Shown one piece after another: positions 1 through 64,000 of a DNA stretch of 64,000 bases. Origin of the DNA: Rhizobacter sp. AJA081-3 (GTDB lineage: Bacteria > Pseudomonadota > Gammaproteobacteria > Burkholderiales > Burkholderiaceae_C). The position numbers and the translations under genes were made by a program. The stretch spans positions 3,100,001-3,164,000 of the forward strand of contig NZ_CP059067.1 in the NCBI RefSeq assembly GCF_017795745.1. The letters run 5' to 3'. Positions within the stretch are counted from its first letter, which is position 1. Every line of letters starts with the position of its first letter. The notes beneath the pieces are model-generated. The model ran no database searches. It saw only the letters and a list, made by a program, of their open reading frames with translations, and was not told the DNA's origin.

Positions 1-198
1 CAGGTGCAGGCCGCACTCGCGCGCCTCCACGTGCGCGCGCACCACGCCGGCGAGCGAGCATTCGTCGGTGATGGCCAGCGCCGCGTAGCCGAGCTGCTGC
101 GCACGCCGCACCAGCTCGCCGGGCTGCGAGGCGCCGCTCAGGAAGCTGAAGCAGCTGGCGCAGTGCAGCTCGGCGTAACCCGGAAGGGCGCGGCGCAT
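1..198 (-). CDS. dnaE2: Error-prone DNA polymerase DnaE2 (ImuC), N-terminus, cut by window edge
   Basis: The first 66 codons of an error-prone DNA polymerase III alpha subunit read on the minus strand from ATG at 198. The translation shows the family N-terminus: YAELHC near residue 8, FSFLSGAS, then [16 protein letters not shown], which belongs to the PHP domain. DnaE2 works with ImuA/ImuB in SOS-induced translesion synthesis. Its start lies inside the 3' end of intI (61 bp overlap, different frame), so translation may be coupled. No imuB is seen upstream where the usual imuA-imuB-dnaE2 order would place it; intI occupies that place. The rest of the gene is outside the window. Confidence 0.93.
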
Positions 199-1343
199 GG
201 CGATGGTTCCTCGGCAGACAGGTGCCACGCCGGCGGGTCGGGCTCGCGGGCGTAGCGGCCGGCGCCGGCCGGCCAGGGCGGCGGTGCCCCGGCCGCGGCA
301 GACGGTGCGGCGGGCACGTGCAGCTGGTCGAGCGGGCTGCGCACCGCGCCGCCGCCGAGCTTGAGCACGTGGGTGTAGATCATGGTGGTGCTGACGTCGG
401 CGTGGCCGAGCAGCTCCTGCACGGTGCGGATGTCGTAGCCCGACTGCAGCAGGTGCGTCGCGAAGGAATGGCGCAGCGTGTGCGGCGAGGCGGGCTTGTG
501 GATGCCGGCCTCGTTCAGCGCGCGCTTGAAGGCGCGCTGCAGGGCCTGGTCGAACATGTGGTGGCGGCGCTTTGGGGGCGGGGGCGCGTCCTGCGCCTCG
601 CGGCCCAGCGGGCGCTCGCGCGGATCGACCGACAGCGTGGCCTGCGGGAAGACCCAGAACCAGGCCCAGGACTCGGCCGCGCGCGGGTACTTGCGCGAGA
701 GCGCGTGCGGCAGGTTCACGCCGGCGACACCGGCGGCGCGGTCGGCCGCCCACAGCGCGTGCGCCTGAGCCAGCTGCGCGCGCAGCGGCGCCTCGAGTGC
801 AGCCGGCAGCATGACGATGCGGTCCTTGCCGCCCTTGCCTTCGCGCACGACGATGGCGCGGCGGTCGAAGTCGATGTCCTTCACGCGCAGGCGCAGGCCC
901 TCCATCAGGCGCAGGCCGGTGCCGTAAAGCAGCTGCGCGAACAGCTGCAGCACCGGCCAGGGCGCGAGCGCCGCGAGCACGCGCGCCACCTCGTCGTGCG
1001 ACAGCACCACCGGCAAGCGCGCCTGGCGCTGCGGGCGGCCGATCTCGTCCATCCAGGGCACACGCTGGTTGAGCACCTTCTGGTAGAGGAACAGCAGCGC
1101 AGACAGCGCCTGCTTGTGCGTGGCCGGCGCGACCTGGCGCTCGGAGGCCAGCCAGGTGAGGAAGGCCTCGACCTCGGCCCCCGACATCTCGGCCGGATGG
1201 CGCAGCCCATGGAAGCGGATGAAGGCACGCACCCAGTGCACGTAGGCCTGCTCGGTGCGCAGGCTGTAGTGCATGTAGCGCGCCTGCATGCGCAGGAGGT
1301 CGAGCAGACGGGGGCTGGCTGGTGGAGGCTGCAGGTGGTTCAT
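138..1343 (-). CDS. intI: Integron integrase IntI (tyrosine recombinase)
   Basis: A 401-residue tyrosine recombinase that recombines attI with folded single-stranded attC sites. Catalytic residues are visible: R145 in TGLRL, H288 and R291 in [13 protein letters not shown]314 in [10 protein letters not shown], and nucleophile Y323 in MIYTHVLK. The integron-specific insertion is present around residues 215-234 ([19 protein letters not shown]), separating IntI from XerC/D. The start at 1343 is chosen because an AGGAAGGA ribosome site (complement of 1351-1358) precedes it and homology begins there; an upstream in-frame extension to 1586 is unlikely. IntI proteins usually end soon after the VRSPLDQL segment, but this one carries about 60 more Pro/Ala-rich residues that run into dnaE2. 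The promoter contains a LexA box, so SOS control is expected. Confidence 0.96.
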
Positions 1344-1350
1344 GGCGACA

Positions 1351-1358
1351 TCCTTCCT
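1351..1358 (-). promoter_or_regulatory. Ribosome binding site of intI
   Basis: On the minus strand this reads AGGAAGGA, seven bases upstream of the ATG at 1343. It decides the intI start against the longer in-frame extension. Confidence 0.7.
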
Positions 1359-1372
1359 CGGGTTGCAATGGA

Positions 1373-1392
1373 TACTGTACATATGTACAGTA
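1373..1392. promoter_or_regulatory. LexA (SOS) box upstream of intI
   Basis: TACTGTACATATGTACAGTA is a perfect 20-bp palindrome that contains the CTG-N10-CAG core of the proteobacterial LexA operator. It lies 30 bp upstream of the intI start. On the minus strand a TTGATA element (complement of 1394-1399) abuts it, so LexA binding would cover the space between -35 and -10. LexA control of intI is established in several integrons; here the same operator may also serve dnaE2 downstream and the divergent gene at 1486. Confidence 0.92.
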
Positions 1393-1393
1393 C

Positions 1394-1399
1394 TATCAA
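1394..1399 (-). promoter_or_regulatory. Putative -35 element of the intI promoter
   Basis: On the minus strand this reads TTGATA. A poor -10 match (CAGTAT) follows about 16 bases later, overlapping the end of the LexA box. The element is weak by itself; position relative to the operator is the main support. Confidence 0.4.
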
Positions 1400-1485
1400 A
1401 CCGAATGCGCCGCAATCCTGGGCTGGATGCCGATCTCCACCCTTCGTGCCGCGTCGCACAGCCCAGCCCCGCCAGGGCGTACCCG

Positions 1486-1875
1486 ATGCCTGCGTCCAGC
1501 CAGAAGCGCCCAGCACAGGAACGCGACTCGTCGATCGGACGGCTGCGCATCGCCAAGCGGTATGCGCCGACCCAGAACGGGGCCAAACGATTCCTGCGCC
1601 GCTACGGAGAGCAGTTGGTATGCGTCCGCCATCGCCTGAGCGATGATGGGAAAGTCCGCCACACGACCATCGAACTACTGGTCGAAAGCACGCCCGTCGT
1701 CTCGAGAATGCGTAGCATCATTGCCCTACGCATTCCGCAGGCCGACAAGGGAAGCCGGCAGTTGCTGATGGCCTGCGACGCAAAGTGGAAGCCGAAAGAG
1801 CGCCTCTGGCTGGTCCCTCAGCTCGTCGCCAAGAATCTGAAGCTGCTCAGATATCGCGTCCCGATGCCTGGGTGA
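1486..1875 (+). CDS. Conserved hypothetical protein between intI and attI
   Basis: A 129-residue basic, soluble protein transcribed away from intI. It has a regular fold-like pattern ([37 protein letters not shown], then a C-terminal half rich in Lys and Arg) and resembles short conserved hypothetical proteins of betaproteobacteria; I cannot name a function. No GTTAGGC lies at its 5' end and no attC at its 3' end, so it belongs to the fixed platform, not to a cassette. In most integrons attI directly follows intI, so this interposed gene is unusual. The ATG at 1486 is the start that fits; an in-frame extension to 1288 would overlap intI. Confidence 0.7.
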
Positions 1876-1929
1876 ACCCGCATCGCGGCCTGTGGCAGTA
1901 TCCGACGGCATGCAGCAGCAAATTGCCAT

Positions 1930-1968
1930 AAGCCGCAACTGCAGAATGATCCCTAAATCACGTTAGGC
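1930..1968 (+). other. attI: attI primary cassette insertion site
   Basis: The array begins at CTAAATCACG|TTAGGC, with the crossover expected between G1962 and T1963. The sequence to the left is unique platform DNA and the sequence to the right is the first cassette. There is no R'' partner or palindrome, which separates it from the attC sites. The left limit is approximate. Confidence 0.85.
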
Positions 1969-1976
1969 GTCACCAG

Positions 1977-2435
1977 ATGCACAAGAGCGCGCGCCGACTG
2001 GCCCTTCTCGTAGCAACGCTTCTCGCTGCCTGTAGCGAGATGGGGAATGACACAGGCCAAATCAGCCAGCGCATCGGCGACCTGGCGAAGAAGCCTGAAA
2101 CCAAGGAGGTGCGGCTGGCTGAGCTCACTTCCTTTGGTTGGGACCGCTTCTTCATCTTCAAGCCGGGCACGAAGCGCGAAGAGATCTGTGATTTCATCGG
2201 TGCCAAGCGTCCCAGCTGTGGCCGGGTCATCCGGTACGAATCGGTGCCCCAGACTCATGTCGCACTCGTGTTCGGGTTGGGCAATCAGCTAACTCACACC
2301 GAACTTCATGCTCTGGCTAACGGGCGGTTCAATCTGCCGCCTTCCGAGCGCGGCTACCCCAAAGAATCCGCCATCTTCAAGGTGCGCCGCGCTTTGTCCG
2401 GTACGGAGCAAGAGGTCTGGCTCGAGCCGCAGTGA
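1977..2435 (+). CDS. Putative lipoprotein, copy 1 (first cassette)
   Basis: A 152-residue protein with a signal peptide and lipobox (LVATLLAAC, Cys at about residue 19), so probably an outer-membrane or periplasmic lipoprotein. The mature part has two Cys pairs at most and no family I recognise. It is the cassette nearest attI, hence the most recently inserted and best placed for transcription. An apparently identical cassette, including its attC, lies at 46192-46650. Confidence 0.8.
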   Translation: MHKSARRLALLVATLLAACSEMGNDTGQISQRIGDLAKKPETKEVRLAELTSFGWDRFFIFKPGTKREEICDFIGAKRPSCGRVIRYESVPQTHVALVFGLGNQLTHTELHALANGRFNLPPSERGYPKESAIFKVRRALSGTEQEVWLEPQ

Positions 2436-3236: not shown

Positions 3237-3905
3237 ATGGCCCGCACAAGTGATCGAGATCTCTTTCTCAAGCGATTGGCGAAGCTTTCCGGAGCAGACG
3301 GTGGCTTTGTGACCAACGAAGCGCTCCGTGCCGAACTCAAGTGGGAGAAGCCGAAGTACCGAGCAATTCACAGTTCACTGCGACAGGAAGAGCTCATAGT
3401 CGTCAAGCGAGGTCGCGGTGGCCTGGTCGCACTTGCGGGCAACAAGAAGACAGAGCGAATGAAGATCTTCGTCTCCTACAGTCACGTGGACAAGGATCTC
3501 AAAGACCGCCTTGTCAAACACCTTCGCCCTCTCGAGCACGAGAATCTCGTTGAGGTTTGGGTTGATCATCAGATCAAGGCCGGAGACGACTGGGACAAGG
3601 AGATCGCGAAGAAGCTCGGGGAAGCCGACATAGTTCTCACCCTCGTAAGCATCGACTTCATCAATTCGAAGTACTGCTACGACATCGAGCTCGAGAAGGC
3701 TCTCGAACGCGAAGCAGACGGTGAGTCCCAGGTGATACCGGTGATCTTGAGAAGTTGCCTCTGGACGAAGTCACCATTGGGGCGTTTGAAGGCACTTCCA
3801 ACCGACGGAAAGGCCGTAACGACGTGGAGCGACATCGACGAAGCCCTCACAGTCGTCGCGTCCGGCGTGCGCGACGCGGCCATTGCGCTGCTAGAACATG
3901 GCTAA
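3237..3905 (+). CDS. Winged-helix plus TIR-domain protein
   Basis: A 222-residue two-domain protein. Residues 1-72 look like a winged helix-turn-helix (FVTNEALRAELKW, IHSSLRQEELIVVKRGRGGLVAL). Residues 75-200 are a TIR domain of the bacterial TIR_2 kind: MKIFVSYSHVDKDL, VEVWVDHQIKAGDDW, ADIVLTLVSIDFINS, and YCYDIELEKALE, whose Glu is the expected NAD-hydrolase catalytic residue. Bacterial TIR proteins often act in abortive phage defence by destroying NAD or by making signal molecules. Here no sensor partner is in the cassette; the HTH could sense DNA or control its own expression. AGGGAGAACC precedes the ATG. Confidence 0.85.
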   Translation: MARTSDRDLFLKRLAKLSGADGGFVTNEALRAELKWEKPKYRAIHSSLRQEELIVVKRGRGGLVALAGNKKTERMKIFVSYSHVDKDLKDRLVKHLRPLEHENLVEVWVDHQIKAGDDWDKEIAKKLGEADIVLTLVSIDFINSKYCYDIELEKALEREADGESQVIPVILRSCLWTKSPLGRLKALPTDGKAVTTWSDIDEALTVVASGVRDAAIALLEHG

Positions 3906-5108: not shown

Positions 5109-5235
5109 GCCTAACCCTTCGCTGGAGCGGACCGCCACCGGCCTGGCACTTGGCCCGCTTCCCGGAGTGGTACATCATCCGTCCAGCGGGCCAAGCGCCA
5201 TCCCGGCGTCGGCCCGCTCAGCTCAAACGTTAGGC
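5109..5235 (+). repeat. attC 5
   Basis: R'' GCCTAAC, R' GTTAGGC; arm type I; loop GTACATCAT. Closes the first VOC cassette. Confidence 0.95.
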
Positions 5236-5276
5236 CTCAGAGTCGAGGAAGTCGAGCTGCCTCCATCACCGCGCCA

Positions 5277-5600
5277 ATGCGATCGAAGCCAATACGGACG
5301 CACAGTCCGATGTACCGCACCCGCACGAACTGGCGCTTCCTGAGTCGACCGGAGCTTCGGTTGCTCATGTCAGGTCTCGCTGATTGGGAGTCCCGTTCCA
5401 CAGGCCAAGCGTTAGCTCGCATTCGCAGAAAGCGCTTGGAGGCAGTAGCGTTCTTCCGCAAGCATCATGGTCCGCTATTGGACGATCGCCTATGGGTGTC
5501 ACTGCGTGGCCCCGTGGAGCAACGACCGGAACAATGGCTCTCGCGTAGGCACGACCCACGGCTTGAAAGACTTCGCGGTGTGCTCTGGCACGAAACGTGA
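5277..5600 (+). CDS. Hypothetical protein, uncertain ORF
   Basis: A 107-residue Arg-rich reading frame, possibly starting at a second ATG at 5309 (96 residues). It has a plausible helical middle (RIRRKRLEAVAFFRKHHGPLLDDRLWV) but no family I know. Minus-strand frames of similar length exist in the same cassette (for example 5237-5461), so strand assignment is uncertain. It ends 70 bp before attC 6. Confidence 0.4.
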   Translation: MRSKPIRTHSPMYRTRTNWRFLSRPELRLLMSGLADWESRSTGQALARIRRKRLEAVAFFRKHHGPLLDDRLWVSLRGPVEQRPEQWLSRRHDPRLERLRGVLWHET

Positions 5601-5672
5601 ACCACCAATGCTCTGGATGGCAATCCGTCAGCAGGCGGCGCTCGTCATCCCAGCCAATCCTCAAGCGCTGAG

Positions 5673-5798
5673 GCCTAACCCTTCGCTCGAGTGGACCGCC
5701 ACCGGCCTGGCACTTGGCCCGCGAAGCGCTCGCTGTCATGATCCGCTTCGCGGGCCAAGCGCCATCCCGGCGTCGGCCCCTCAGCTCAAACGTTAGGC
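5673..5798 (+). repeat. attC 6
   Basis: R'' GCCTAAC, R' GTTAGGC; type I variant with GAGTGGACCGCC and right arm GTCGGCCCCTCAG; loop TGTCATGAT. Confidence 0.95.
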
Positions 5799-5806
5799 CG
5801 CACAGC

Positions 5807-6271
5807 ATGCGTCTACTCCTTTGTGCCCTGGCAATCACCTCGCTGCAGGTTTCGGCGCAGCCAGTGGAGCCTTGCAGCTTCGTGGTTGGTCACGGCTCGC
5901 TCCGAGGCGAGTCTGCCGCTTCTAGTTCTCCGCCGCAGCCAGAATGGTTCATCGTCTCAGGCAGAGCCGAAGTTCAAATCAAAGCCACTACGTTGCACGC
6001 AAAGTTCTTCGACTCTCGGGCGCCGACAGAGGTGTCACACGAGTTCTCCGCCAAGCTTTCTCGTGCGCCCAGCACAGCAGCGCGAAGCCAGGCTCGTGTC
6101 GCGGCGCAACTGCGCACGCTTGGCACCGACAGTGGGGACGACTCCCTTTCTGGATCGTTTGCCATCGAGCCCAGTCAATCTGGTCGTCAGCGCTACTTGC
6201 TCCGCTCCTTGGTCGTACACAACGCCTTCTCGTATGTCGGCATCTCCTGCTACGCAAAGAGTGCGGCCTAA
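5807..6271 (+). CDS. Exported hypothetical protein, copy 1
   Basis: A 154-residue protein with a clear signal peptide (MRLLLCALAITSLQVSAQ). Mature part has Cys residues near both ends and a Ser/Ala-rich composition. No family recognised. Copy 2 at 60282-60746 differs by one residue near the start (Leu to Val). Ends on the R'' TAA. Confidence 0.72.
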   Translation: MRLLLCALAITSLQVSAQPVEPCSFVVGHGSLRGESAASSSPPQPEWFIVSGRAEVQIKATTLHAKFFDSRAPTEVSHEFSAKLSRAPSTAARSQARVAAQLRTLGTDSGDDSLSGSFAIEPSQSGRQRYLLRSLVVHNAFSYVGISCYAKSAA

Positions 6272-6392
6272 CCCTTCGCTGGAGCGGACCGCCACCGGCC
6301 TGGCACTTGGGCCGCGAGGCTCTCAGGCTTAGCATTCGCCTCGCGGCCCAAGCGCCATCCCGGCGCCGGCCCACTCAGCTCGAACGTTAGGC
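6266..6392 (+). repeat. attC 7
   Basis: R'' GCCTAAC, R' GTTAGGC preceded by CTCGAACG instead of CTCAAACG; arm type I; loop TTAGCAT. Confidence 0.95.
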
Positions 6393-6479
6393 CTCAGAGC
6401 CAAGCACCGAGGCACCCTGTCTCACCGAATGCCACCCATGTTGAGTTCGCTATCTGTTGGTACGACCGGAGTCTTGTAA

Positions 6480-6779
6480 GTGCGCGTGGTAGCAAACCCT
6501 GTTAGTGCCACCGTCACTGGCGTCTACTGCGGAGTCGTCCTGCTCGTGCTAGCTCCGTACATCGATGGCCCATCAAGCAGTTCGTTGTGGCTCGTCTTCG
6601 GTGCGCTTGCCGTTGGAGTCCCCGCGTTCTTCTTCGTTCTCGGCATCAAGCGCCACGAAATGGTGGGACTGTGGCTACTAGAGCGCAGCCTTCTCACTCG
6701 CGTTGCTGCGTTCTTGCTTGCGGCTGCGGCAAGCGCTGCACTGGGAACCATGTTCCAGTCGTTGCTGCGCTCGAGTTGA
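6480..6779 (+). CDS. Small membrane protein
   Basis: About 99 residues from a GTG start, with three hydrophobic segments (GVYCGVVLLVLAPYI, LWLVFGALAVGVPAFFFVLGI, VAAFLLAAAASAALGTM). An in-frame GTG two codons later is an alternative start. Function unknown. Confidence 0.6.
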   Translation: MRVVANPVSATVTGVYCGVVLLVLAPYIDGPSSSSLWLVFGALAVGVPAFFFVLGIKRHEMVGLWLLERSLLTRVAAFLLAAAASAALGTMFQSLLRSS

Positions 6780-6822
6780 GCATAGCCACACAGGCACATG
6801 GCATTCCTCGCCACGCGCTGAG

Positions 6823-6951
6823 GCCTAACCCTTCGCTCGAGGCGGACCTCCACCGGCATGGCACTTGGGCCGCGAGCCGCTCATGGTCTATGCTGCGCCT
6901 CGCGGCCCAAGCACCACGCCGGTTCCGGCCCGCTCAGCTCAAACGTTAGGC
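6823..6951 (+). repeat. attC 8
   Basis: R'' GCCTAAC, R' GTTAGGC; type I with an extra G (GAGGCGGACC) and right arm GGTTCCGGCCCGCTCAG; loop TCTATGCTG; 129 bp. Confidence 0.95.
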
Positions 6952-6962
6952 CGCACAACGCG

Positions 6963-7322
6963 ATGACACGACGACCCCCTCCCCCAAGTCGATCACCAGC
7001 CGGTACCACCGTCTTCGAGAGGCTCTTGGGCACGATCTTGGGTGGGTTATCTGGCGCTTTGCTGTATGCCGCAGTTCAGATGTTCGCACTCTCGCCAGTT
7101 CACGCACATGATCGTTGGAGCGTTGCAGGCCCCGGAAAGGGGTATGTCCTGACCGGAGCCATACTGGGATTCCTTCTAGGTCTTTCATTTGCCAAGTGGC
7201 TGTGGTCTGTTGCAGTCGATCAAGTGGAGGTCACGGCCGGTGATTGGGGCTTCTGGCTAATTCTCGTAGCAATCGTCGTAGTTGTTGTCATACTTCTTTT
7301 TAGATACTTCGGTGTTTCATAG
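6963..7322 (+). CDS. Membrane protein with Pro-rich N-terminus, copy 1
   Basis: A 119-residue protein: Pro/Arg-rich start, then three transmembrane segments (LLGTILGGLSGALLYAAVQM, YVLTGAILGFLLGLSFA, FWLILVAIVVVVVILLF). No family recognised. Copy 2 is at 58472-58831 with several substitutions, so the pair has diverged slightly. Confidence 0.68.
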   Translation: MTRRPPPPSRSPAGTTVFERLLGTILGGLSGALLYAAVQMFALSPVHAHDRWSVAGPGKGYVLTGAILGFLLGLSFAKWLWSVAVDQVEVTAGDWGFWLILVAIVVVVVILLFRYFGVS

Positions 7323-7370
7323 TCGCCTCGCTAGTGCGACATGCAGCGCTTCTGCCACGTTTGTGGTGCG

Positions 7371-7497
7371 GCCTAACCCTTCGCTGGAGCGGACCTCCAC
7401 CGGCCTGGCACTTGGCCCGCGAGGCGCTCAGGCTTAGCATGCGCCTCGCGGGCCAAGCGCCATCCCGGCGTCTGCCCGCTCAACTCAAACGTTAGGC
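7371..7497 (+). repeat. attC 9
   Basis: R'' GCCTAAC, R' GTTAGGC; arm type I; loop TTAGCAT; CAACTCAAACG before R'. Confidence 0.95.
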
Positions 7498-7509
7498 CGC
7501 ACAGAACCC

Positions 7510-7938
7510 ATGACGCTGCCCTTCGAGTATCAGAACGCCTCACTCGAATTCGAACGGTTCATGCTGGACGCCAGAGAACGCGCTGGCCTCGGTACGACCA
7601 ACATGACATGGAACATGGTGGTCGGCGTCCTACACACCTTTCGTCGCCGGCTCTCTATCGAGGAGGCTCTGCGCTTTGCGGCTGTGCTGCCTCCCGTCCT
7701 GCGCGCCCTGTTCATCGAAAACTGGGAGCCCGATCAGCCTGTCGCCAGGTTTGGCACCAACGACGAACTGCTCGCTGAGGTTCGTTCTCTTCGGCCAGAG
7801 CACAACTTCTCGCCTCCAAACGCCATTCAAGCCGTAGCTGGTGCCCTGCGCAAGCATGTTGATGTGGCTGCACTTGAGCGCGTTCTTTCAACCCTGCCAG
7901 CAGGAGCACAGCGCTTTTGGTCGGTCGAGGCCGAGTAA
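7510..7938 (+). CDS. DUF2267-like protein
   Basis: A 142-residue soluble helical protein. The pattern RFMLDARERAGL, then VVGVLHTFRRRLSIEEALRFAAVLPPVLRALFIENW fits the DUF2267 family, which is of unknown function. Typical length for one DUF2267 module. Confidence 0.7.
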   Translation: MTLPFEYQNASLEFERFMLDARERAGLGTTNMTWNMVVGVLHTFRRRLSIEEALRFAAVLPPVLRALFIENWEPDQPVARFGTNDELLAEVRSLRPEHNFSPPNAIQAVAGALRKHVDVAALERVLSTLPAGAQRFWSVEAE

Positions 7939-7956
7939 GTCAAGCGCGGCAGTGCG

Positions 7957-8083
7957 GCCTAACCCTTCGCTGGAGCGGACCTCCACCGGCCTGGCACTTG
8001 GGCCGCGAGGCGCTCAGGCTTAGCATTCGCCTCGCGGCCCAAGCGCCATCCCGGCGTCGGCCCGCTCAGCTCAAACGTTAGGC
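7957..8083 (+). repeat. attC 10
   Basis: R'' GCCTAAC, R' GTTAGGC; arm type I; loop TTAGCAT. Confidence 0.95.
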
Positions 8084-8132
8084 CTCCGAGGGCAGCAATC
8101 GAGGCCTCTCGATCATCCAGCGCGGAGGTGTC

Positions 8133-8501
8133 ATGTTCGACCACGTAGGTTTCGGAGTCTCCAACTTGGCGGAAAGCAAGGCGATCTTCCTCAAGGCGCT
8201 TGAACCACTGAAGGTCACGCTCGTGATGGAAGGCCCTTACGGGGTTGGCATCGGGCAGAACAACAAGCCTTCGCTCTGGCTTCACCAAACGCAAGGCGTC
8301 ACTGCCCCGCTTCACATTGCCTTCTCTGCCACCAGTCGAGCGGAAGTTGACGCCTTCTACAAGGCTGCGCTCGCTGCGGGCGGCAAAGACAACGGAGCGC
8401 CTGGCCTGCGCCCTCACTACCACCCGAACTACTACGGAGCCTTTGTCATCGGCCCGGACGGCCACAACGTCGAAGCTGTGTGCCACAAGCCGGAGGCCTA
8501 A
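8133..8501 (+). CDS. VOC family protein
   Basis: A 122-residue VOC module homologous to the cassette at 4690: MFDHVGFGVSNLAESKAIF at the start and YYGAFVIGPDGHNVEAVCH at the end with the expected His and Glu metal ligands. Substrate unknown. Stop codon is in R''. Confidence 0.85.
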   Translation: MFDHVGFGVSNLAESKAIFLKALEPLKVTLVMEGPYGVGIGQNNKPSLWLHQTQGVTAPLHIAFSATSRAEVDAFYKAALAAGGKDNGAPGLRPHYHPNYYGAFVIGPDGHNVEAVCHKPEA

Positions 8502-8622
8502 CCCTTCGCTGGAGCGGACCTCCACCGGCCTGGCGCTTGGCCCGCTTCCCGGAGTGGTACATCATCCGTCCAGCGGGCCATGCGCCATCCCGGCGTCGGC
8601 CCGCTCAGCTCAAACGTTAGGC
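8496..8622 (+). repeat. attC 11
   Basis: R'' GCCTAAC, R' GTTAGGC; arm type I; loop GTACATCAT. Confidence 0.95.
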
Positions 8623-8650
8623 CGCAGAAACCAACGCTCGCGCCCCTCGC

Positions 8651-9163
8651 ATGCTCATTCCTACTCTGGAGACCGATCGCTTGAGGCTTGTCCCGCCAAC
8701 GAGCGCCTGCGAAGCAGCATACGAAGCCTTCTACACCGACGCATCGGCATCGCAACACTACGGTGGCCCGTTGTCTGCCGGGCAAGCTTGGGCGCGTCTG
8801 GCCACCGATCTGGGAAGCTGGCATCTCCAAGGGTTTGGCGTCTGGGCCGTTGAGCTCAAGGAAGATCAAGCCATCGTAGGCACTTGTGGCTTTTGGCAGG
8901 GCAAGGGCTGGCCGAGAGAGCTCACATGGTGGTTACTTCCGGCTGCGCGCGGCAAAGGCGTAGCCGTTGAAGCCTCCTGCGCGGCAATCCGCCATGCGTA
9001 TCAGGTGTTCGGCTGGCAAGAGGTTCAAACGTACATGAACGACAGCAACACCGTCGCTCGGGGCTTGGCCGCTCGGCTTGGCGGTCAAGTCATCGGCCGG
9101 CGGCTGTTTCCCGATGGGCTGGAACGCGATGTCTTCCGCCTCCCGCCACCCACTGCGGCCTAA
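8651..9163 (+). CDS. GNAT N-acetyltransferase (RimJ/RimL type), copy 1
   Basis: A 170-residue GCN5-related acetyltransferase of the RimJ/RimL group: opening LIPTLETDRLRLVPPT, central WAVELKEDQAIVGTCGFW, then the acetyl-CoA region AARGKGVAVEASCAAIRHAY and NDSNTVARGLAARLGG. Typical full length. Copy 2 (14840-15352) differs at one residue (Gly to Ser in AARGKG), a change within the acetyl-CoA loop. The two copies have different attC sites. Stop is the R'' TAA. Confidence 0.9.
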   Translation: MLIPTLETDRLRLVPPTSACEAAYEAFYTDASASQHYGGPLSAGQAWARLATDLGSWHLQGFGVWAVELKEDQAIVGTCGFWQGKGWPRELTWWLLPAARGKGVAVEASCAAIRHAYQVFGWQEVQTYMNDSNTVARGLAARLGGQVIGRRLFPDGLERDVFRLPPPTAA

Positions 9164-9286
9164 CCCTTCGCTCGAGGCGGACCTCCACCGGCATGGCACT
9201 TGGGCCGCGAGGCTCTCCAGGTTTATCCTCCGCCTCGCGGCCCAAGTGCCATTCCGGCGTCGGCCCGCTCAGCTCAAACGTTAGGC
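9158..9286 (+). repeat. attC 12
   Basis: R'' GCCTAAC, R' GTTAGGC; type I with extra G (GAGGCGGACC); loop TTTATCCTCC. Differs from attC 22 although the genes they close are nearly identical. Confidence 0.95.
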
Positions 9287-9289
9287 GTC

Positions 9290-9670
9290 ATGAAGGTCCC
9301 GACTGCGCCGGCATCACCGCTCACTTCCTGGCTACCTCCGCGAGGCTGGCCACGATATCTATTCATGCTGTGGTTCGCGCTTTGCCTCGTGGTCTTGGCC
9401 TTCACTTTTTGGGTGTACGCCCCAGGTCCGCGCTCTGACGCAATGGTCCTGTTCGCCTGGGCAATGGTTGCACTTGGCTTTCCAGCCAGCCTTGCTGTTT
9501 CACTAGCAATCGCTTCCATGCTCTCTTTGGCAGATGCAGTTCCGCTGCTTCAGTCGGCATCCGTTCCAAACTGGTTGGGGTTACCGCTCCTTTGGTGCGC
9601 CTTCTGTGCCGCAGGTTACCTGCAGTGGTTCGTGCTCGTGCCAAGAGTCTGGCGCCGTCTCCGCGCATAG
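9290..9670 (+). CDS. Membrane protein, hypothetical
   Basis: A 126-residue protein with four hydrophobic segments (YLFMLWFALCLVVLAFTFWV, MVLFAWAMVALGFPASLAVSLAI, LGLPLLWCAFCAAGYLQWFVL). The ATG lies only four bases after R', so no normal ribosome site is inside the cassette; initiation may rely on the preceding attC. No family recognised. Confidence 0.65.
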   Translation: MKVPTAPASPLTSWLPPRGWPRYLFMLWFALCLVVLAFTFWVYAPGPRSDAMVLFAWAMVALGFPASLAVSLAIASMLSLADAVPLLQSASVPNWLGLPLLWCAFCAAGYLQWFVLVPRVWRRLRA

Positions 9671-9715
9671 AGTCCCAAGCGTAGCCAACGGCCAAGCAGA
9701 GCAATCCGCGATGAC

Positions 9716-9844
9716 GCCTAACCCTTCGCTCGAGGCGGACCTCCACCGGCCTGGCACTTGGCCCGCGAAGCGCTCGCTGTCTATCATTCGCTTCGCGGGC
9801 CAAGCGCCATCCCGGTTCCGGCCCGCTCAGCTCAAACGTTAGGG
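9716..9844 (+). repeat. attC 13
   Basis: R'' GCCTAAC, R' variant GTTAGGG; type I with extra G and right arm GGTTCCGGCCCG; loop TGTCTATCAT. Confidence 0.95.
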
Positions 9845-9854
9845 CTCACAGTCG

Positions 9855-10403
9855 ATGCACGCGTGGAGCACGATACAACTGACAAACGTTGATTCGTCAA
9901 CGCTTGGCCTTGCCGACTTGGCAGTTCGCCATCAGCCCACGTACAGCCGCTTCAAGGCGTACCGGTCCGAGGTATTGGAGGCGTGCATATTCTTGGAGAG
10001 CAGGCTTGAGGTACTCCTCTGCCAGCTGTTCATTGGCGACGACCCTGCGCGCATTCAGCTGTTCCGGTCCCTAGTGCTCGAGCCAGAGTCAGGCTCGTTC
10101 TTCGCCAAGTGGCGCATGTTGCGTGGCGCATTCGAGATCGCCGGGGTTCCCCGCCACGTCCTCACTGAGTCCAAGCGCAAGGAGCTACTCACAGGGCTCA
10201 AGGAACTAAACGATTGCCGCAACAGGTTTGCCCACGGGGTGCTGTACATCGACGTACGCGACGGGCGTCCGCTCTTGGAGTACTACGAGTCAGGCAAGAA
10301 GAGCCAGTACCTGAGTGACGAATACGTTCAGTCGGTTCTGCTGGCCGCGGAATCTACGCATGCACTGCTTGAAGCTGTAGTCCAGGCAGCCAGTGAGCCC
10401 TAA
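9855..10403 (+). CDS. HEPN-like hypothetical protein
   Basis: A 182-residue helical protein. Residues around 127-135 read ELNDCRNRFAHG, an R-x4-H motif in a helix like those of HEPN-fold RNases and related proteins. The N-terminal half has a long helix (VLEACIFLESRLEVLLCQLF) that could pair with it in the usual dimer. A defence or toxin RNase role is possible but unproven. Ends on CCCTAA in R''. Confidence 0.6.
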   Translation: MHAWSTIQLTNVDSSTLGLADLAVRHQPTYSRFKAYRSEVLEACIFLESRLEVLLCQLFIGDDPARIQLFRSLVLEPESGSFFAKWRMLRGAFEIAGVPRHVLTESKRKELLTGLKELNDCRNRFAHGVLYIDVRDGRPLLEYYESGKKSQYLSDEYVQSVLLAAESTHALLEAVVQAASEP

Positions 10404-10526
10404 CCCTTCGCTCGAGGCGGACCTCCACCGGCATGGCACTTGGGCCGCGAGCCGCTCATGGTCTATGCTGCATCTCGCGGCCCAAGCACCACGCCGGTTC
10501 CGGCCCGCTCAGCTCAAACGTTAGGC
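10398..10526 (+). repeat. attC 14
   Basis: R'' variant CCCTAAC, R' GTTAGGC; type I with extra G; loop TCTATGCTG. The R'' variant matches the GTTAGGG at the 5' end of the same cassette. Confidence 0.95.
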
Positions 10527-10555
10527 ATCGCAATTCTGTCCGGCGCCCTTTCAAC

Positions 10556-10969
10556 ATGAAGCCTTCCGTCCTGCTTGGCGTCACTGTGGGCTGGCTAGCG
10601 CAGCTCGGACTAAACACCATTCTTCCAATTGCAGTCCTCACCGTCAGTCGCATCTTCGCGCTGGGAACAGAAGGCAATGCTCTGTGGCCCGAGAGCCCGA
10701 GCGAAAGCAGTCATCCTGTCTGGTATGCAATACAAGCATCAGTTTTCATTGGGTCGGTCGCTGCAGGTTGGCTCGCTGGCGCGCTATCTCCAAGGAGGTC
10801 CATAGCGCCGCCCCTGGTACTTGTGCCTCTGAGCCTTCTGAGTACCGCCTTCGAGCAAATTCCCCGCCCTCTCTCGCCCTTAGTCCTCGTTGTTTGGGCC
10901 GGAGGTCCGTGCTTGGCCCTAGTGCTCGGCTGGCTCATCGCCCGCTTCGCGCGACGCAGCGATGCCTAA
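10556..10969 (+). CDS. Membrane protein, hypothetical
   Basis: A 137-residue protein with four predicted transmembrane segments (LLGVTVGWLAQLGLNTILPI, IQASVFIGSVAAGWLAGAL, PPLVLVPLSLLSTA, LVLVVWAGGPCLALVLGWLI). Function unknown. Stop codon lies in R''. Confidence 0.65.
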   Translation: MKPSVLLGVTVGWLAQLGLNTILPIAVLTVSRIFALGTEGNALWPESPSESSHPVWYAIQASVFIGSVAAGWLAGALSPRRSIAPPLVLVPLSLLSTAFEQIPRPLSPLVLVVWAGGPCLALVLGWLIARFARRSDA

Positions 10970-11090
10970 CCCTTCGCTGGAGCGGACCGCCACCGGCCTG
11001 GCACTTGGCCCGCTTCCCGGAGTGGTACATCATCCGTCCAGCGGGCCAAGCGCCATCCCGGCGTCGGCCCGCTCAGCTCAAACGTTAGGC
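10964..11090 (+). repeat. attC 15
   Basis: R'' GCCTAAC, R' GTTAGGC; arm type I; loop GTACATCAT. Confidence 0.95.
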
Positions 11091-11136
11091 CTCACAGAAC
11101 ACACGATGGTGGTCGTTCGCGGCCAGAGGAGATCAA

Positions 11137-11604
11137 GTGACGTCTCGCAGAGTTGCCTTGTTCGCTGGTGCGGGTGCCGTAGGTGCCGCCTTGGGCGCAG
11201 CGGGATGCGCCTCCAAAGGAACATCTGCGTCGCGTACTGACTTGTTGGCCCAGGTGCGCCTCGCAGAAGAGAACTTCGCGGCCACCATGGCGCGCAGAGA
11301 TGCGGCGGCATTCGCTGAGTTCATCTCGCAAGACGCTGTCTTCATCAATGGAGGCAATCCACTCCGTGGCAGGGCGGCGATCGTCGAGTACTGGTCAAAG
11401 TTCTTCGCTCCTGCAACAGCACCATTTGCCTGGCGGCCCGAGCTTGTTGAAGTCGCCTCCTCCGGTACGCTGGGCTACACCGAAGGCCCCGTCCTGTCGC
11501 CCACGGGTGCCGTCTTCGCCAAGTTCTTCACCACTTGGCAGTTGGGCCCAGGCGGCAAATGGCTCGTCGTCTTCGACAACGGGTACAGCGTCTGCAAAGC
11601 CTAG
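11137..11604 (+). CDS. SnoaL/DUF4440-like lipoprotein
   Basis: A 155-residue protein from GTG, preceded by AGAGGAGA. The start has a twin Arg (TSRRVAL), a hydrophobic stretch and lipobox GAAGC, so it is likely a lipoprotein, possibly Tat-exported. The rest is an NTF2-like SnoaL/DUF4440 domain: RLAEENFAATMARRDAAAFAEFISQDAVFINGG, RGRAAIVEYWSKFF, and FTTWQLGPGGKWLVVFDNG. Such domains bind small molecules; activity unknown. Confidence 0.8.
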   Translation: MTSRRVALFAGAGAVGAALGAAGCASKGTSASRTDLLAQVRLAEENFAATMARRDAAAFAEFISQDAVFINGGNPLRGRAAIVEYWSKFFAPATAPFAWRPELVEVASSGTLGYTEGPVLSPTGAVFAKFFTTWQLGPGGKWLVVFDNGYSVCKA

Positions 11605-11618
11605 GCCGAAGCAGTGAG

Positions 11619-11744
11619 GCCTAACCCTTCGCTGGAGCCGACTCGCACCGGCATGGCACTTGGCCCGCGAGCCCGTCGTTCTTATCATCGGCCTCGCGGG
11701 CCAAGCACCATCCCGGCGCTCGCGCCTCAGCTCAAACGTTAGGC
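11619..11744 (+). repeat. attC 16
   Basis: R'' GCCTAAC, R' GTTAGGC; arm type II; loop TTCTTATCAT. Confidence 0.95.
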
Positions 11745-11812
11745 CTCACAGTTGGAACGGCGAGATCGTTCGTCGCCCTTTCTAGCAGCAACACATCTAC
11801 CGGAGGACTTGC

Positions 11813-12202
11813 GTGCTACACGGAACATGTCATTGCGGTTCTGTCTCATGGGAGTTCAAAGGAATGCCCGAGTCAGCCACAGCCTGCAACTGCACGGTCT
11901 GTCGGCGCTATGGCGCCTTGTGGGCCTACGACTACGAGAACGAAGGCATCTCGTTCTCTGGCTCTACCAAGATCTATGTGCGAGGCAAAGCAATCGAGTT
12001 TCACTTCTGCCCGAGTTGCGGCTGCGTGGCGCTGTGGCGCGCGCAAGGATCAGATGAACAGGGTCGCCGTCGAATCGCAGTCAATCTTCGGCTCACGGAG
12101 CCCGAGCCGATTGCCAGTCTGCCCATCGATCACTTCGAAGGGTTGAACACATTCGACGACCTCCCACGCGACGGTCGGTGCATCAAAGACATGTGGTTCT
12201 AG
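11813..12202 (+). CDS. GFA family (glutathione-dependent formaldehyde-activating-like) zinc protein, copy 1
   Basis: A 129-residue protein from GTG with CGGAGGA upstream. The Mss4-like GFA fold is marked by Cys pairs CHCGSV near the N-terminus, CNCTVCRRYG, and FCPSCGC, which bind two zinc ions. Family members include Gfa, which was reported to promote the glutathione-formaldehyde reaction, but most are uncharacterised. Copy 2 at 60936-61325 appears identical, with identical leader and attC. Confidence 0.88.
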   Translation: MLHGTCHCGSVSWEFKGMPESATACNCTVCRRYGALWAYDYENEGISFSGSTKIYVRGKAIEFHFCPSCGCVALWRAQGSDEQGRRRIAVNLRLTEPEPIASLPIDHFEGLNTFDDLPRDGRCIKDMWF

Positions 12203-12215
12203 AGCCAGCAGTGAG

Positions 12216-12342
12216 GCCTAACCCTTCGCTGGAGCGGACCTCCACCGGCCTGGCACTTGGCCCGCGAAGCGCTCGCTGTCATCATCCGCTTCGCGGGCCA
12301 AGCACCATCCCGGTTCCGGCCCGCTCAGCTCAAACGTTAGGC
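12216..12342 (+). repeat. attC 17
   Basis: R'' GCCTAAC, R' GTTAGGC; arm type I, right arm GGTTCCGGCCCG; loop TGTCATCAT. Same as attC 97. Confidence 0.95.
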
Positions 12343-12351
12343 CGCAAGACC

Positions 12352-12756
12352 ATGCGAATCGTCCCCCTGGTGCTTTGTGCACTGACCGCTTTCATCGCTA
12401 CAGTTTCCGCAGTGCGCGCCGCACCGATGAACAAATGCATCATCAACGGCAGCGTCACGTACCAGCAATCGCCGTGTCCTTCGACTCAAGCTCGAAGGGA
12501 CCCCACGCTCGAGGAGCTGAACGCCGCTGAAAGGAAGCGACGTGCCGTAGCTGCGTCCGCCGCGACCGCAGCACCCAGGGACGCTGCTCCTGCGCCCGCA
12601 ATGACTTCCCGCGGCTTCAGTTGCGACGGAAGAAAATACTGCTCTCAGATGCGGTCATGTGCCGAAGCCAAGTACTTCCTTGCCAACTGCCCCGGTGTGA
12701 AGATGGACGGCGACAACGATGGCATCCCCTGCGAGGAGCAGTGGTGCGGGCCCTAG
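12352..12756 (+). CDS. Secreted excalibur-domain protein
   Basis: A 134-residue protein with a signal peptide (VLCALTAFIATVSAVRAA). The segment after it (MNKCIINGSVTYQQSPCP) resembles a DUF4124-type Cys pair, an Ala/Arg-rich linker follows, and residues 95-133 form an excalibur calcium-binding domain: CSQMRSCAEAKYFLANCPGV then DGDNDGIPCEEQWC with the Asp ladder. Probably periplasmic; role unknown. Confidence 0.85.
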   Translation: MRIVPLVLCALTAFIATVSAVRAAPMNKCIINGSVTYQQSPCPSTQARRDPTLEELNAAERKRRAVAASAATAAPRDAAPAPAMTSRGFSCDGRKYCSQMRSCAEAKYFLANCPGVKMDGDNDGIPCEEQWCGP

Positions 12757-63971: not shown

Positions 63972-64000
63972 GCCTAACCCTTCGCTGGAGCGGACCGCCA
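63972..64000 (+). repeat. attC 101, cut by window edge
   Basis: R'' GCCTAAC and the beginning of a type I left arm (GGACCGCCA). The array continues beyond the window. Confidence 0.9.

Follow-up and report, generated by a model that had tools for sequence, protein, structure and literature searches.

The first positions of the analysed window, a stretch of 64,000 nucleotides from Rhizobacter sp. AJA081-3, raise the question whether an integron integrase gene (intI) and the gene of the error-prone DNA polymerase DnaE2 are governed by one and the same SOS operator. The shuffling of integron cassettes and error-prone repair belong to the outputs of the SOS response, and their genes are usually regarded as separate members of one regulon. 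An earlier sequence-only reading of this DNA had pointed to an overlap of 61 bp between the two genes and to a perfect LexA palindrome upstream of them, both of which were confirmed in the present analysis (positions 138-198 and 1375-1390, respectively). As outlined below, the two genes very probably constitute a single SOS operon that heads a large chromosomal integron.

The intI gene (138..1343, minus strand) encodes a protein of 401 amino acids that scores above the cut-offs of two integrase profiles, TIGR02249 (integron integrase; 451.5 bits, cut-off 265) and NF011946 (480.5 bits, cut-off 435), and thus belongs to the IntI family of integron integrases, as expected for a sedentary chromosomal integron. 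The residues R145, K170, H288, R291, H314 and Y323, which we take to be the catalytic residues, are invariant in an alignment of 25 relatives. Only the first 66 codons of dnaE2 are located in the window (1..198, minus strand; ATG at 198-196). According to the remainder of the gene, which was taken from the genome and extends to genome position 3097007, the protein comprises 1063 amino acids with PHP, Pol III alpha, finger and HHH domains. The best match of its N-terminal 66 residues was NF004225, error-prone DNA polymerase (E 2e-22, 79 bits, the cut-off for the whole protein being 939), and the assignment as a DnaE2-type Pol III alpha subunit is based on this profile for the N-terminal part and on the Pol III alpha domains for the full protein. 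The overlap of the two genes (138..198, minus strand) is out-of-frame, with the stop codon of intI 60 nt into dnaE2, a position that is identical in 9 relatives. A GAGGA motif noticed by eye within intI (208..212, minus strand) is a possible ribosome-binding site of dnaE2, so that the dnaE2 start plausibly has its own ribosome-binding site inside intI.

The candidate single operator of both genes, the LexA (SOS) box CTGTACATATGTACAG (1375..1390), lies 31 bp ahead of the start codon of intI as an exact match, with no other exact copy in the genome (5.40 Mb). It reached 28.2 bits in the matrix scan compared to 5.0 bits for the next best site in the 19 kb locus. The looser palindrome CTGTAYNNNNRTACAG was detected at 5 places in the genome (0 for the reversed control), namely those of a dinB-like Y-family polymerase, imuA-imuB, intI-dnaE2, a UvrD-like helicase and one place without assignment. 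The genome harbours one clear lexA gene (2413570-2414232; 221.7 bits) which itself carries a 20.3-bit box starting 65 bp ahead of its reading frame. By sequence, the LexA box in the promoter and the LexA protein in the genome together assign the gene pair to the SOS regulon.

DnaE2 is only one part of the mutasome. The imuA-imuB genes were detected ~550 kb from intI-dnaE2 behind an SOS box of their own; no DnaE2 match was found in the 15 kb around imuA-imuB, nor any ImuA or ImuB match in the 19 kb around dnaE2. The imuA-imuB-dnaE2 cassette is hence split in this genome, and dnaE2 is located behind intI. A second dnaE2 copy beside a canonical cassette was ruled out, as a search with a DnaE2 query of 471 residues returned a single match with an E value of 1e-90 or lower and none in the 15 kb around imuA-imuB. 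The best DnaE2 matches among those listed from plasmids, at 58-59%, come from Paraburkholderia, which suggests the Burkholderiales.

The cassette array diverges from intI (from position 1962 on the plus strand to the end of the window at 64000) and continues beyond the window to about 117 kb. Its first nucleotides, GTTAGG (1962-1967), are the likely attI junction, assigned by eye. Between 1900 and 64000 there are 88 copies of one attC-like family. Motif searches yielded 168 right-end and 149 left-end matches compared to 0 and 2 on the opposite strand, with the last right-end match at 116,932 and the last attC motif match overall near 117.5 kb; the attC sites thus point in one direction, as in a chromosomal integron. 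Four stretches of 300 bp (families D9-D12) repeat at 100% identity far apart, which is consistent with recent cassette duplication; with regard to a cassette recombination driven by IntI, these identical repeats are only consistent with it. In the same part of the window (1900-64000), several cassettes (D9-D15) have copies of 97-100% identity that are separated by tens of kb, suggesting recent duplication within the array. Furthermore, a reading frame on the plus strand (1486-1875) lies between intI and the likely attI junction, divergent from intI and with no attC before it, and a cassette gene at 3237-3905 resembles, by eye, a TIR-type domain protein.

A search of genomes for intI directly upstream of dnaE2, as the sequence-only reading had proposed, revealed that the layout is widespread in the same family. 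In 399 family genomes the TIGR02249 search gave 182 matches at E 1e-60, 169 of them above the cut-off. The dnaE2 search (the 471-residue query) covered 160 of the 182 intI-positive genomes and detected the gene in 130 of them (73/80 plus 57/80). In at least 30 of these 130 genomes, the window genome included, intI was confirmed on the DNA level to be located upstream of dnaE2 on the same strand, in two cases with one gene in between. This count and the count of 4 given below for other families are lower bounds, the intI places being partly listed and the pairs having first been matched by eye via their coordinates; one further candidate pair (L073) turned out to be unlinked on inspection of the DNA. 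Most intI genes of the family are not linked to dnaE2 (30 of the 160 tested are).

The intI stop codon lies well within dnaE2 in 11 of the 30 loci, in 10 of these at the identical place 60 nt into the gene, and 0 to 85 bp ahead of the dnaE2 match start in another 15, so that an overlap or a gap of ≤85 bp is found in 26 of the 30. The distance amounts to 142 bp in L051 and to 1275 bp in L069 and L070, where one gene on the same strand intervenes, predicted to encode an AAA_14/DUF4143 protein (Pfam; 4530-5741 in L069, with a near-identical frame at 2202-3413 in L070); L074 is linked, but its intI is frameshifted. In L069 and L070, both from genus g60, the intervening gene adjoins short palindromic repeats. 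Similar inverted repeats occur near 2960-3020 in L074, from a third g60 genome, in which the gene is absent, as if a small element had come or gone. Because 19 of the 30 loci lack the deep overlap, a translational coupling of the two genes, judged from these sequences, is not a conserved feature.

The same comparison bears on the possibility that the junction is a product of assembly or of chance. Several of the relatives are indeed represented by fragmented assemblies, but the window genome consists of one contig of 5.40 Mb and the junction is repeated in other genomes including some of 1 to 4 contigs (G212, G344, G149). An assembly artefact was therefore rejected, and we regard this explanation as having next to no probability.

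The search for the plain pattern CTGT-N8-ACAG detected a box at intI in 23 of the 30 linked loci, and a matrix built from 20 boxes, with sites of ~13 bits or more being counted, detected one upstream of intI in 26, three of which (L052, L053, L058) have degenerate boxes found by the matrix only. No LexA site was identified by the matrix between the intI start and dnaE2 in those 26 loci, the best junction site having 1.3 bits; in the window's own locus (L011), too, the box ahead of intI is the only one, dnaE2 having none. The earlier proposal of one SOS operator for both genes is thus supported. Boxes of these very loci served to train the matrix, which makes their scores partly circular; the loci L194-L198, which were outside the training set, gave 27 to 32 bits with the background set for GC-rich DNA. 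The exceptions are L051, which has a 19.0-bit box before dnaE2 and none before intI, L072, whose contig ends inside intI, L074, which has no box and the frameshifted intI, and L075 with only a weak site of 9.1 bits.

LexA boxes at integron intI genes are already known, and among intI genes of the same family that are not beside dnaE2 a box of ≥13 bits was found upstream in 23 of 47 loci. Since boxes are common without linkage, the intI box alone proves little, and the argument for a shared unit rests on the linked dnaE2 genes without a box of their own. Related dnaE2 genes without an adjacent intI have a box within 165 bp upstream in 9 of 10 cases according to the matrix and in 6 of 10 according to the plain pattern. 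No box was found upstream of the unlinked dnaE2 of L081, and L084 has the arrangement imuA-imuB-dnaE2 with a 16.2-bit box before imuA. In the loci L047-L086 (347,588 bp) all 36 sites of ≥13 bits are accounted for by the upstream regions of intI, dnaE2 or imuA. By eye, a ..TACT resembling a -10 element recurs in the left half of the box, both at intI and at unlinked dnaE2 genes.

A separate SOS promoter and terminator between intI and dnaE2, which would speak for separate transcription, were looked for in the window and not found, and a box at dnaE2 occurs in only 1 of the 30 loci (L051). A pattern scan of the window positions 1-2000 revealed neither a terminator-like site nor a promoter-like site on the minus strand; as the scan gave no promoter at the LexA box either, its silence is weak evidence. 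This touches on an explanation in which the integron merely happens to abut dnaE2 and dnaE2 is driven by an unrecognised promoter within intI. Such a scenario could draw on the fact that the scans recognise common promoter and LexA-box types only and on L051, in which dnaE2 has a separate box in spite of being adjacent to intI. However, the order and strand of the genes are constant in the 30 family genomes with the close spacing in 26, and no LexA box lies between them in 26 although unlinked dnaE2 genes are nearly always boxed. Thus, adjacency without a shared transcript seems unlikely, and the one-operon reading is preferred.

Besides its junction, the integrase attracted attention by its C-terminal extension (residues 342-401; 141..320, minus strand), which is rich in proline and alanine and lies beyond the TIGR02249 match. 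In an AlphaFold model of modest quality (mean pLDDT 72.1, pTM 0.58) residues 343-401 have a pLDDT under 50. A tail of ≥30 residues past the usual end was found in 22 of 34 linked integrases compared to 8 of the 106 unlinked integrases whose tail was clean, these counts leaving aside 21 more unlinked loci that gave no clean tail as well as L074, which is linked but has the frameshift. While the integrase core is under purifying selection (pn/ps 0.04-0.38, 9 pairs), the tail evolves fast (pn/ps 0.34-0.87, 26 to 80 codons). A short peptide with varying third codon positions, e.g. AREPxAAYAL or RVxMPxAxY, is often present in the tails; in the window, the peptide AREPDPPAW (residues 365-373; nt 225-251, minus strand) is common to relatives. 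The motif P-x3-Y occurs in 14 of the 34 linked tails and in 4 of the 106 unlinked clean tails. Three of the four unlinked integrases concerned, all from genus g63, carry a good version of the peptide, which weakened its candidacy as a marker of dnaE2 linkage. On account of these unlinked g63 integrases, the peptide seems to track the IntI lineage and not the linkage as such.

With regard to the history of the link, linked integrases are strongly clustered in the IntI tree, whose sample was enriched in linked loci (9 changes compared to 26.8 in shuffled trees, 0 of 500 being as low), and its well-supported branches require at least 5 changes. Linked rows are intermingled with unlinked ones in the DnaE2 tree (9 changes compared to a mean of 9.8 in shuffles, 170 of 500 shuffles being as low), so that gains and losses of the link are not distinguishable there and the tree, being unclustered, does not show simple descent with rare loss. 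Within each of the genera g91 and g107, the integrase at the dnaE2 site belongs to different IntI lineages. When the genes upstream of unlinked dnaE2 were compared with the far end of the array, no shared synteny emerged; only the two g98 loci were clearly alike, in addition to scattered short matches. Integrases ending in LTSER (L016-L019, L021), presumably the ending of class 1 IntI1, occur in several genera, and L016, the one of them included in the IntI tree, falls into the same clade (97/87) as most of the dnaE2-linked integrases.

The link is also present outside the family. A survey of the class comprised 369 genomes, 140 with intI at E 1e-70, of which 138 were searched for dnaE2 and 54 possess it. 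The two genes are linked in at least 4 of them, three from one genus of family f144 (G540, G748, G652) and one from f84 (G707); in the f144 genus all 3 intI-positive genomes drawn carry the link, with a gap of about 4 to 15 bp. In all four the best box is located upstream of intI and none between the genes, L195 having a second site of 13.8 bits inside dnaE2. The families f144 and f84 group together with long branches and moderate support (87/86), and may represent one origin or two. In L197 (G707, about 5167-10284) DnaE2 matched as four pieces on the same strand, and the gene behind intI looks interrupted. Furthermore, in a genome of another family (G517, f121) one LexA box is followed by intI, lexA, imuA and imuB (L198, about 8582-12578, minus strand; lexA 236.5 bits, imuA 196.9 bits), and dnaE2 lies farther along with its own box. 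When ImuA was sought in 80 chosen genomes, 79 gave a match and 74 exceeded the cut-off, with no further intI beside imuA among the listed places that were compared. Among the matches listed from other bacteria, DnaE2, ImuA or ImuB were found near IntI in 0 of 80 control loci within the available flanks, at least 7 of the 80 having <500 bp downstream of intI.

Taken as a pattern, these arrangements might indicate that integron integrases have repeatedly come to lead mutagenesis operons under LexA control (intI-dnaE2 in a large family and in two others, intI-lexA-imuA-imuB in a further one), so that damage would launch shuffling and point mutagenesis jointly in an "evolvability operon", and the conserved peptide in the disordered tail of many linked integrases might dock IntI on the replication or mutasome machinery. 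We consider this wider idea tentative, its chances being a little short of even. A different motive for the same arrangement would be shelter: the operon would be real, and intI would persist there since its careless deletion would part dnaE2 from its promoter, the benefit being the stability of the integrase and not the joint induction. The SOS control of dnaE2 seems to be selected, given the box directly before dnaE2 in 9 of 10 cases where intI is absent, and the place outlives a particular intI, as the g91 and g107 sites hold different IntI lineages; both would fit with shelter. However, intI heads SOS mutagenesis genes elsewhere too (dnaE2 in f144 and f84, lexA-imuA-imuB in f121), and shelter is generally not needed, as most intI genes of the family are unlinked (30 of 160 tested are linked). 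Shelter is therefore possible, with somewhat poorer prospects than the wider idea; it concerns the reason and not the wiring, and can be compatible with the shared operon.

The operon that we prefer for this locus would operate as follows. In the undamaged cell LexA bound to the single box at 1375-1390 would keep both intI and dnaE2 low. Upon DNA damage LexA would be cleaved, and RNA polymerase would start at this site and transcribe intI and then dnaE2, read-through being expected because neither a second LexA box nor a recognisable terminator lies between the genes. Once induced, IntI would excise and insert cassettes, and DnaE2 would cooperate in the mutagenic bypass of lesions with ImuA-ImuB, which would be induced separately. 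From the sequence we infer the shared transcript and its induction, together with any translational coupling and any benefit that joint induction may have. If this is true, damage should turn on gene shuffling and mutation jointly in this bacterium and in many of its relatives. The apparent sharing of a promoter in many species, with similar links elsewhere, would provide a natural and testable system for the old question whether a joint rise of several kinds of variation in stressed bacteria is selected for or a mere by-product of such links. It might also offer a reason for the persistence of integrons of this kind, as careless loss of the integrase region would separate dnaE2 from its promoter.

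We recognised no description of an intI-dnaE2 operon in the accessible parts of the open-access literature (e.g. PMC13114513, PMC8565304, PMC3323433, PMC3108266). Integron integrases controlled by LexA were described by Cambray et al. 2011 (PMC3108266), in the accessible portion of which the words dnaE, imuA and operon are absent. As far as that portion goes, the present locus resembles these systems in having a chromosomal integron intI with a LexA box in its promoter; it differs in that a dnaE2 without its own box comes after intI, so that one box would serve both. The imuA-imuB-dnaE2 SOS mutagenesis cassette is named in the accessible parts of PMC3323433 and PMC8565304. Compared to what is given there, dnaE2 likewise lies behind a LexA box and imuA-imuB are present and also boxed, whereas dnaE2 is here separated from imuA-imuB and set behind intI. 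In the Vibrionaceae, there is a correlation between the presence of imuA-imuB-dnaE2 and the chromosome on which the superintegron is located (PMC3323433), an earlier hint of an association between superintegrons and the mutagenesis cassette. However, the accessible account of the Vibrionaceae concerns a correlation of presence and chromosome and no shared transcription unit, whereas in Rhizobacter sp. AJA081-3 the integrase and the polymerase very probably belong to one operon.
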